Below, one piece after another: positions 35,103 through 46,584 of a DNA stretch of 47,119 nucleotides; the first letter of the stretch is position 1; each line of letters begins with the position of its first letter. This DNA is from Nitrospirota bacterium (GTDB taxonomy: Bacteria; Nitrospirota; Thermodesulfovibrionia; Thermodesulfovibrionales; JdFR-85): the NCBI GenBank assembly GCA_035873375.1, contig JAYWMQ010000028.1, positions 1 to 47,119 of the forward strand, in the 5' to 3' direction. The notes under the pieces are model-generated. The model saw only the letters and a program-made list of their open reading frames with translations, was not told the DNA's origin and searched no databases. The translations under genes and the position numbers were made by a program.

Positions 35103-37955
35103 TCATATCATCTTCAGTCTCGACATGATATCCCTTATCCAGGCATAGTCGTCACCATGTGCCTCAACAAAACCTGTATAGTGTTCATCAATGGATTTCA
35201 GTACCGTTATCCCTTCAGTGCCGGTATCCTTCAGCGCGAGGATGGCGGATTTTATCTCTTCTGCACTTTCCTCGGGTATATCCCTGGTAATACATATATT
35301 GAACTCGGGTATTTCTTCAGAGAATTTTATAAATTTCAATCCCTGTTCCTTATATTTATCCGCAGTTGATTCCATTACTCCTCCAGCGTCATACCCACCT
35401 GAAAGCACTGCCTTTGCCACATCATCGTGATGGCCGAGATAGTTATAGAAGAGGAGGTCGTCAAGGTCTATGCCGGCTTCAAGTAACATATACCGTGGCA
35501 CTATATGAGATGAGGTAGACTCCTGATCGCCAAAGGCAAATGAGCAGTCCCTCAGGTCCTCAATGCTTGATACAGGGCTGTCACTCCTTGCAATAATGAC
35601 CGAGTGGTGAAAGGGCTTGCCGTCCCTCAGGGCCTTGGCAATTACCCTTACGCCATAATCACGATTGGCCTTTATGTATGTTGAGGGGGTCATATAGCAG
35701 AGTTGTGTTACACCACTGCCGATCTCCTTTATTGCACTGTTGAAATCCACGCCCACCTTTAATTCCACCTTCTTGCCGAGTTTCCTGCCCAGGTACTCAG
35801 CGAGGGGGGTAAACTTTCTATACATATCCGCCGGAGATTCCAGGGGTATTACACCGAGCCTGAGGGTCTTTTCAGGCCTTGCGGATACAGAGAATCTGAA
35901 ACTTTCCATTTCCGTCACAATAAGTTCGGAGTCTTTAACGAGGGACCTGAGAGAATTGTTGACCTTGAATGAGAGGTTCCTGTTTTTAACCGGAAGGTCT
36001 GATATATTTTCTGCAGATCTCTTTATCTGTTCAGACTCTGTTTTCTGTTCATTTATGGCGCTGGCTATCTGCTGACTCTTTTCTGAAACCACATCAGTGC
36101 TCTTTATTATCTGTTTGCTCTGCAGGGATTGCTCCTCTGTAGCGGTTTTCACCTGCACGGCTATATCCTTAACCTTCTCCGCGGCATTCGTTATAAGGTT
36201 CATTCCCCTTGATTGCTCGGATGTTGCCTTTGCAATCTGACTTGCCATATTACGGACATTTTCCATTGACCTTGATACAAACCGTGCTGCCTCAGCCTGC
36301 TCCGAAGTTGAGTGTTCAATGGCCGTAGACATCTCTGAAGAAAGCTGTGCGCTCTCCACAATCTTTTTCAGTACCCCTGAGGCCTCCTGTGAGAGCCCGA
36401 GTCCCTCATTGACCGATTCAAGGCCGTGCTTCATTGCATCCACTGCGTCCCTGACCTCCTGCTGCACCGTCTGTATCAGTGATGAAATCTCCTGGGTAGA
36501 GAAGGATGTCCTTTCTGCGAGGTCTTTTATTTCATCGGCAACAACAGAAAACCCCTTGCCGTGTTCTCCTGCCTGGGCTGCCAAAATAGCCGCATTCAGT
36601 GCAAGGAGATTCGTCTGGTCGGTAACATCGTCGATTACTGTGAGTATCTTTCCTATCTCTTCCGACCTCCCGCCGAGCTTCTTTATATACTCTGCGGTCT
36701 TTTCAACAGAGGTCTTTATCCGTTCCATCCCCTCGATAGTCTTCCCGATGGAAGTCATTCCGTAAGTGGATGCCTCGTTCATGACCCGTTCACTCAATTT
36801 GGCGGATTCCTTGGTATTCCCTTCGACTTCCCTGATAGAGGCTGTAATCTCTTCAATTGCTGAAAGGGTGTCCTCAGCAGACCTGAAGAGATCATCAGCG
36901 CTCAGCGCAACCTCTTTTATGGAAGATGAGAGTTCCTCAATGGAAGCTGATGTAGATTCGGTTGATTCAAAGAGTTCGTTGCTGTTGTTGGCGATCTGGG
37001 AGGTGCTGGCAGCCATCTCTTCAACCGCAGCGGTGGTCTGTTCTGAAGATGCCGCAAGGTCTTCCGTATTTGCTGCAATCTCGGTGATTGCAGCGTTCAG
37101 TTCCTCTATGGAAGAGGAGATATTCGAAATAGCCTCGGCTTCGAGTTGAGTGCCTTCAAGAATATCCCTCGACTCCGATTCAACCTCTGAGGAGACCTTG
37201 GAGATTCTTTTAGTGACGTCCTTTACCCTCTGGAGGATTGAAGATATGGATTGAAGCGCATCCTGCAGCGCAGTGCTCGCCTGTCCGATTTCATCGGTAG
37301 AATCTATATCGACATTGAAGGTCAGGTCTCCATCCGAGAGGAGCCTGGCAGCCTTTTCTATCTTCTTTATCGGGTTAAGCACTATCTTTCTCAGAAGCAG
37401 CCACATAATAAAAGAGAGTATGGCTATGGCAAACAAGGAAGCGATGATAGTAACAGTTGCCATCTCTGCAATCTTTTCTTTCTCACTTTCAAGTGTCATG
37501 GAGACCTTGACCGCCCCGATGAAAGGGCTGTCAATCTTGTGGCATTTTTGGCATGCAGATCTTTTTATCAGTGGCTTGTAAACGGTCATTAGCCCGTTTT
37601 CGATCAGGGCGTAAGGGGAGAGGTTTGTCCTGAACCTTTCGACATAGCGCTTCTCTGTTGCAGGTGCTTTTCTGTCAAATGCTACCCGGCCTTCATGATT
37701 CAGGATAGTGATGGCCTCTACGCCTTTAAGTGCCTTGAGGTCGCCTGCCATGGCTTTGGTGATTTCAGCCCGTCCTTCAATCATGGTCCTTTCAATGCTT
37801 GTGCTGATTACCGTTGCGGTTTCAAACATTTTTTCCTGTGCGGTTTCGTAGATGTTTTTCTTCTGAAGATAAATAACCGTAGTTACGGCAAAGATAGCGC
37901 CCAAAATAATGACTGATATAACTACTCCAAGGACCTTTTTTTCAAGTTTTCCCAT
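35103..37955 (-). CDS. heme-motif receptor with cytoplasmic PhnD-like domain (MCP fusion)
   Basis: The 950 residues, in order: membrane helix 8-30; a periplasmic sensor with the c-type heme motif CQKCH at 135-139; membrane helix about 167-188; HAMP about 189-241; a methyl-accepting signalling domain about 250-690 with tip [20 protein letters not shown] at 447-466; and, after RPEK, a PhnD/phosphonate-type periplasmic-binding fold at 696-950 ([52 protein letters not shown]). With only two membrane helices the PhnD-like part must be cytoplasmic. AAGGAG precedes the ATG. Usual receptors end soon after the coiled coil; this has two candidate input domains. Confidence 0.93.
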
Positions 37956-45153: not shown

Positions 45154-45579
45154 TTATCTCCTTGATTTTGCCGGATGAGACCATGGGGCCTGTTTTGCCC
45201 TTTTTTCAGATTCTGCTTTCGAAGGCTGGCTTCTTTTAAAGACATCCATCCCGACAAGAGTGGATGCCCAGTCATGCTCAGGTTCGGTTTCCTGGGTAAG
45301 GAGCCATGTTGCCGTCAATATTTCCTGGCCGTCAATCATTTGCAGTTGTCCGGACCAGGCGGTTACAGAGTGTGAATTTCCACTTTTATTAACCCAGGCA
45401 ACAGTAAATCCGACAGCCTGACTCTGACCGTAAGGTTCTGTGTCTGTAGTGCCTGCCAGGGTATAGATGCCTTGTGCATCTCCGACAGCAGTCTGGTATG
45501 TTCCCGACACAGAATTTCCATCTACCTGTAGATTCATTTCTGAACCCAACTCGTTATACCAGGTGCCTTCCAATCCCAT
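45154..45579 (-). CDS. avidin/streptavidin-family biotin-binding protein
   Basis: The 141 residues align along their length with core streptavidin. Biotin contacts conserved: Asn9 and Ser13 (streptavidin 23, 27), Tyr28 (43), Thr30 for Ser45, Asp34 for Asn49, Trp62 (79), Ser71 (88), Thr73 (90), Trp75 (92), Trp92 (108), Leu94 (110), Trp104 (120) and Asp112 (128). Motifs are GTWYNELGS, GTYQTAVGDA, FTVAWVNKSGNSHSVTAWSG, TATWLLT and STLVGMDVF. Retained Trp104 favours a tetramer like streptavidin rather than a rhizavidin-type dimer. GGAGGG precedes the ATG by about six bases. There is no signal peptide, so as written it is cytoplasmic. A basic tail of 27 residues ends APWSHPAKSRR. It is not part of any biotin-synthesis cluster. 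Confidence 0.93.
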   Translation of the reverse strand: MGLEGTWYNELGSEMNLQVDGNSVSGTYQTAVGDAQGIYTLAGTTDTEPYGQSQAVGFTVAWVNKSGNSHSVTAWSGQLQMIDGQEILTATWLLTQETEPEHDWASTLVGMDVFKRSQPSKAESEKRAKQAPWSHPAKSRR

Positions 45580-45690
45580 TGATTCCCTCCATTTTTGATA
45601 TGAATTTTCAGGTTTTAAGGTGGCTTCTTATCATTTCCCCCATTTTTTAGATCGAGAATGATATTGTAGAATCCAGGAACTACGTACAGC

Positions 45691-45720: not shown

Positions 45721-46116
45721 CATCCCTTCTATAATATCCCATAAGTAAAGAATAATCAACTGGTCAAGGAGTAATTGGGCTTGTATTTATACATTGCCTA
45801 TCAGTTATCGTTGGTTCCCAAGCCGCCCCTTTCTACCAATAAATTCTCGTTAATCCCCTCGTTCCGGACACCCTCCTTGGCAATTATCCAATATTATACG
45901 TATTACGTATTTCCTGATATTAGAGCATAAATACGAAAAACGATAATTTTTTCTTTATAAAATAACAATCAGAGAGTGCATGTGTTTCTAAAATGTGATA
46001 TAGTATAGGGTAGTTTGGGGGAGAAATAAGTAGTTCGTATATTAATTGTTATCAAAAAACTATATTGAGGATATGCTAAAATATACGCATGAAAGCTGAA
46101 AGAACGGGAGGATTTG
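45721..46116. other. AT-rich non-coding region upstream of hicBA, with a TACGTA palindrome
   Basis: No ORF of protein-like quality is seen. It is clearly more AT-rich than the rest of the window. ATACGTA-T-TACGTAT at 45896-45910 is a perfect 15-bp inverted repeat with a single central base. Near hicB, TATATT (46061-46066 region) and AATATA form a loose inverted pair that could be a HicB operator. GCTTAAC at 45706-45712 just outside the region recalls an attC R-box but has no partner. Confidence 0.4.
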
Positions 46117-46344
46117 ATGATAAAGCAATATAAAATAATAGTAGAAAAACATCCTGATGGCTACGTTGCCTATCCATTGGGACTGAGAGGGATAGTGGTA
46201 GGACAAGGTGAGACCTACGAAGAAGCACTTTCGGATGTAAAATCAGCAATAAAATTTCATATTGAAACATTCGGAGAAGAAGTTCTTGAAGTTGATTCAC
46301 CAGTTCTTGAAGCTTTTGTAGCAGAGGCTGGAGTAGAAGCATAA
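46117..46344 (+). CDS. hicB: HicB-family antitoxin
   Basis: The start at the ATG 46117 follows GGGAGG (46106-46111) by five bases. The 75 residues show the HicB fold: KIIVEKHPDGYVAYPLGL, GQGETYEEALSDVKSAI and a short acidic C-terminus. There is no added ribbon-helix-helix or HTH domain, so DNA binding, if any, is by the fold itself or absent. The TAA stop is directly followed by the hicA ATG. The antitoxin-first order is less usual than hicA first but is common in one large subgroup. Confidence 0.9.
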   Translation: MIKQYKIIVEKHPDGYVAYPLGLRGIVVGQGETYEEALSDVKSAIKFHIETFGEEVLEVDSPVLEAFVAEAGVEA

Positions 46345-46584
46345 ATGACAAAATTCCCAGTTGATGCTCCCAAACGGAGGGTAATAAAGGCATTAGAAAT
46401 TTTAGGGTTTATGATTGTAAGGGAAAGAGAACATATTTCAATGGTTAGAGAAAATCCAGAGGGGACAAAAACTCCTTTAACAATGCCCAATCATCCATAC
46501 ATAAAAGCTTCGACATTAAGAACCATATGCACACAAGCAAGGATATCAAGGAAAGAATTTTTAGATGCATACAACAAGACATGA
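46345..46584 (+). CDS. hicA: HicA-family mRNA interferase toxin
   Basis: The 79 residues have the dsRBD-like HicA fold: KRRVIKALEILGFMIVRERE, the active-site His in REREHISMV, MPNHPYIKASTLRTICTQA and RKEFLDAYN at the end. It cuts mRNA at the ribosome or free in the cytoplasm when not bound by HicB. It abuts hicB and ends about seven bases before an attC-like site, the position typical of a gene in an integron cassette. Confidence 0.9.
   Translation: MTKFPVDAPKRRVIKALEILGFMIVREREHISMVRENPEGTKTPLTMPNHPYIKASTLRTICTQARISRKEFLDAYNKT

Follow-up and report, generated by a model that had tools for sequence, protein, structure and literature searches.

The only avidin-family gene in the genome of this Nitrospirota bacterium encodes a protein whose C-terminal tail is likely to be an intrinsic ligand of the streptavidin type, one that would fill the biotin pocket of its own subunit. 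The gene occupies 45154..45579 on the minus strand of the window (the whole stretch of DNA analyzed here, 47,119 nucleotides in length) as an ORF of 141 aa with an ATG start, and Pfam PF01382 (avidin family) matches residues 3–115 (E 1.3e-26), scoring 93.7 bits where the curated cut-off is 24. An eight-stranded barrel is assigned to residues 1–118 (45226..45579) from the Pfam match, alignment to streptavidin positions, and fold comparison. A Shine–Dalgarno-like GGAGGG lies 5′ of the ATG at 45585..45590 on the same strand, and no hydrophobic stretch was found in the 16 in-frame codons checked upstream; thus, as read from the sequence, the start is secure and the protein is without a signal peptide.

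Past the barrel, the tail reads PSKAESEKRAKQAPWSHPAKSRR, and the minus-strand ORF translation ends in ...SKAESEKRAKQAPWSHPAKSRR (also written ...FKRSQPSKAESEKRAKQAPWSHPAKSRR followed by the stop). The initial annotation had described a tail of about 23 residues carrying WSHP at residues 133–136, and the translation bears this out: the tail spans residues 119–141, and WSHP corresponds to 45172–45183. The interval that it gave, 45154–45216, takes in the stop and residues 122–141 only, the fuller extent being 45157–45225. Within the tail, an AlphaFold2 model predicts a helix at residues 121–130 (45190..45219, minus strand; mean pLDDT 77), which would correspond to the streptavidin C1 C-Lid. This is followed by APWSHPAKSRR, residues 131–141 (45157..45189, minus strand), a candidate pocket-binding peptide that aligns with streptavidin 149–154 and with the extension peptide of streptavidin C1. 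Residues 134–141 fall below a pLDDT of 50 in a model built from two nearly identical sequences, and it therefore says little on the last ten residues. Compared with full-length streptavidin (2bc3_A), the model gives a Z of 10.1 and an rmsd of 3.8 over 124 aligned residues, spanning model residues 1–133. A listed ORF start for the next gene, at 45184, falls inside the avidin tail, but this apparent overlap was set aside since in a relative, G004, the sole start of that gene lies past the end of the avidin ORF and comes with both a good ribosome site and a signal peptide.

Tailed homologues reveal which part of the tail has been kept. One occurs in G004 (same genus, contig record JAADGU010000152.1, 95% identical to the window avidin), another in G048 (same order but another family, 49–50% identical), and a third on two Streptomyces plasmids (47% identical), their tails ending in APWSHPAKSRK, SPSHPVQGPSAG, and PVSHPMPS, respectively. 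Past Pro119, the sole invariant columns among these avidins and that of the window are S134, H135, and P136 (SHP; 45172..45180, minus strand), which are preceded by W, P, or V and followed by AKS, VQG, or MPS. Conservation of WSHP in tailed homologues had been set beforehand as a refutation test, and the motif divides under it, with Ser-His-Pro invariant and the Trp free to vary. Strep-tag and Strep-tag II have HPQ in common, and this His-Pro-Gln core is absent here. The window tail has HPA, that of G048 HPV, and that of Streptomyces HPM; the letters in common with the tags are His-Pro. The idea that a Strep-tag core, and its Trp in particular, is what matters in this tail is thus not sustained, given that the Trp is replaced by Pro or Val and that no Gln follows His-Pro.

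The simplest alternative is that WSHP is meaningless and the tail an unconstrained linker. The initial annotation had itself allowed for chance, and the match was indeed spotted after the fact; moreover, the tail differences within the genus (two synonymous and one non-synonymous) are too few to judge selection. SHP nevertheless recurs at an equivalent position in two distant lineages while the remainder of the tail has diverged, and when the independent tails of the window, G048, and Streptomyces were shuffled, any tripeptide common to all three at the same place (within 1 residue) arose in only 28 of 400,000 trials. Chance is accordingly disfavored for SHP, and an unconstrained linker is a very improbable account of the tail. 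By these comparisons the unit conserved beyond chance is SHP rather than WSHP, with the four-letter match being partly coincidence, and a natural plug for the pocket is a more probable reading of the tail than a fortuitous resemblance to the Strep-tag. A shuffle of five tails for the motif [GAS][NH]P returned 0 of 300,000, but the motif was defined post hoc and the result is not counted as evidence.

In all, three independent SHP lineages were found (window, G048, and Streptomyces), all without a signal peptide, in a homologue sample that was small outside Nitrospirota. A single-sequence scan of genome contigs for close relatives returned nothing beyond the same-genus copy, and two scans of viral contigs and one of a phage collection yielded no close relatives. 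SHP-type tail motifs were also absent from the Nitrospirota avidins L005, L006, L008, L024, and L025 (and L007, by its match) and from those of Burkholderia glumae, Xanthomonas, and Rhizobium gallicum, all of which end within a few residues of the last strand or continue free of the motif. L005, L006, L008, L024, and L025 form a second, more distant, tail-less avidin group in another class of the phylum, and several of them have 20–40 additional in-frame residues ahead of the barrel.

A 13-row tree unites the three SHP lineages with streptavidin in a single clade (support 100/100), while the grouping of the Streptomyces SHP protein with streptavidin is weaker (83/89) and the rows outside the clade are tail-less. 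The alignments place the motif in a consistent register. With HMMER, the Streptomyces tail aligns ungapped as far as streptavidin residue 154, and its SHP stands opposite G151-N152-P153; with MAFFT, the window SHP occupies the same columns, with one deletion ahead of it. From the Pro at the end of the barrel to the Pro of the motif there are 17 residues in the window and G048, and 18 in the Streptomyces protein, streptavidin, and C1, where the C1 value assumes a Pro before Ser169, the residue from which the published peptide is printed (PMC7924230). The window tail is thus a C-terminal extension homologous, by alignment, to the streptavidin tail that has been shown in the pocket.

Pocket-filling tails are already known in streptavidin, streptavidin C1, bradavidin, and hoefavidin. 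In the full-length structure of streptavidin, residues 150–153 lie in their own subunit's biotin site (PMC3344845, PMC5398887). This protein (Streptomyces avidinii, PDB 2BC3, 150–153 NGNP) is the closest parallel to the window avidin in several respects: the two share a clade, about 42% identity, near-identical pocket residues, a tail length equal within one residue, and a motif in the same alignment columns. Streptavidin differs in being secreted with a signal peptide and in having Gly-Asn-Pro where the window has Ser-His-Pro, and its pocket occupancy comes from a solved structure while that of the window avidin would follow from homology. In streptavidin C1 (Streptomyces cinnamonensis, PDB 7CQ0/7CPZ), a C-Lid helix is followed by VTSANPPAS, which runs into the biotin site of the same monomer, and its authors pointed out that -NP- alone is common to the C1 and streptavidin tails and may be key (PMC7924230). 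The window tail resembles that of C1 in its predicted helix and in the ensuing peptide with small-polar-Pro residues, although C1 is secreted and processed, carries Asn-Pro, and has had its pocket entry solved and its binding measured.

A different arrangement, raised in the initial annotation as a self-assembly signal, is that WSHP acts in trans, with one subunit's motif binding in the pocket of a different subunit or tetramer and thereby driving assembly. There are precedents for such binding: Strep-tag II (WSHPQFEK) is a 72 uM ligand of the streptavidin pocket, and the tail of bradavidin goes into the neighboring subunit, a structurally different mode (PMC3344845). The letters WSHP are common to Strep-tag II and the window tail; however, the former is a selected and designed peptide with HPQ, while the latter lacks the Gln, and its Trp is unconserved in the family. 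The Brad-tag of bradavidin (SEKLSNTK, PDB 2Y32) and the C-terminal peptide of hoefavidin (PDB 4Z6J) are intrinsic avidin-pocket ligands, like the window's candidate, but belong to other avidin groups; the bradavidin tail adopts an S-shaped pose in its neighbor, and [GAS][NH]P is missing from the Brad-tag. In streptavidin and C1, the homologous tails, which the window tail matches in both length and layout, act within one subunit, so that assembly through a neighbor's pocket is not implied and such trans binding is distinctly improbable. The broader proposal of a built-in pocket ligand has fared well, with SHP kept at about 50% identity and aligned to G151-N152-P153 of streptavidin.

Under the preferred reading of a same-subunit plug, the chain would turn past the last strand (Phe114–Pro119) into a short helix (residues ~121–130) resting on the barrel, and the peptide that follows would, as suggested by homology to two solved structures, enter the biotin pocket of its own chain, placing Ser134-His135-Pro136 where streptavidin has Gly151-Asn152-Pro153. 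The pose may differ from that of the streptavidin tail, which is longer by one residue and has Asn where the bulkier His stands here. The tail would be expected to fill the empty pocket weakly and, by analogy with C1, to be displaced by free biotin: the C1 tail loses density once biotin is bound, and the affinity of C1 peptides ranges from 49 nM to 21 uM, depending on the peptide and construct, while biotin binds at picomolar levels (PMC7924230). A plug of this kind would hardly hinder free biotin, and its likeliest role would be to stabilize the empty barrel and to make the protein less prone to capture weak or bulky ligands (biotinylated carrier proteins, for example), leaving the binding of free biotin nearly intact.

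It is also conceivable that the conserved SHP stays out of the biotin pocket and serves some other contact, its docking partner being a metal, another protein, or the tetramer's outer surface. Conservation by itself is silent on what SHP touches, and the end of the tail is modeled at low confidence; furthermore, the tail carries a charge of +5 and the barrel −11, which would make surface or nucleic acid contacts possible. The charge is not conserved, however, being +3 in the G048 tail and 0 in that of Streptomyces, and this variation also ruled out a “basic tail” as a conserved property. Considering, too, that SHP aligns exactly to the streptavidin residues observed in the pocket, docking to another partner is judged unlikely, and the intrasubunit plug is retained as the best explanation.

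The pocket that such a plug would occupy appears to be intact. Of the streptavidin biotin-pocket residues compared (N23, S27, Y43, S45, W79, S88, T90, W108, W120, and D128), all are kept except S45, which is Thr, and the streptavidin-type pocket residues of the window avidin are N9, S13, Y28, T30, W62, S71, T73, W75, W92, W104, and D112. Since these contacts and Trp120, the tetramer residue of streptavidin, are retained, the protein should work as a tetrameric biotin binder. Its role would presumably be cytosolic. Besides biotin synthase, the genome encodes a biotin carboxyl carrier protein and two members of the biotin/lipoate ligase superfamily. An avidin in the cytosol would thus encounter free biotin as well as biotinylated enzyme, and one hypothesis is that the plug protects the biotinylated enzymes.

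In G002, a genome from the same genus, a deletion has removed the avidin gene (L028:1408-1500): the ribosome site and first codons (MGLDGAWYNELGA) remain, with GGAGGGAATCATG, the same sequence as at the window ribosome site, preceding the truncated start, and this remnant is directly joined to the spacer found past the window's avidin stop and then to the same outer-membrane-protein gene. Avidin was thus dispensable and lost in G002. In G048, the avidin gene lies about 1.1 kb from an ORF that, on inspection of the sequence by eye, encodes a BioA-like aminotransferase of biotin synthesis; a single gene in the opposing orientation separates the two (L017:4259-5686). In the window, at 46114-46584, a HicA-type toxin gene (PF07927) lies directly upstream of avidin on the other strand and is preceded by a small ORF that is HicB-like but matches no Pfam family. 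Elsewhere in the window, 35103-37955 encodes a chemoreceptor of 950 aa that has HAMP and MCP signalling domains and, C-terminal to the cytoplasmic signalling domain, a phosphonate-type periplasmic binding domain (PF12974, residues 700–937), an unexpected position for a periplasmic sensor.

What is new in these avidins is His-Pro in place of Asn-Pro, its occurrence in proteins without signal peptides, and a phylum outside the published survey. That 2021 survey of avidins covered Proteobacteria, Actinobacteria, Bacteroidetes, and one member of the Synergistetes, and the string “Nitrospir” is absent from its text (PMC8033661); a literature search for avidin together with Nitrospirota found nothing relevant. 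The three SHP lineages are without signal peptides while the secreted streptavidin and C1 have Asn-Pro, a correspondence drawn from too few lineages to make a rule. As a tentative and rather doubtful extension, a streptavidin-like lineage without signal peptides (in Nitrospirota and on Streptomyces plasmids) might have kept the SHP plug so that a cytosolic avidin holds free biotin yet spares the cell's own biotinylated enzymes, with the secreted streptavidins later changing to (Gly/Ala)-Asn-Pro.

The streptavidin tail plug is commonly seen as a by-product taken off in processing. The present findings suggest instead that it is an old, selected feature of the clade, kept even in a seemingly cytosolic protein. 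They also supply a natural core with His-Pro, as in the laboratory Strep-tag, that could seed new tag/receptor pairs, and they raise the testable question of whether a plug causes an avidin to select free biotin in preference to biotinylated protein.
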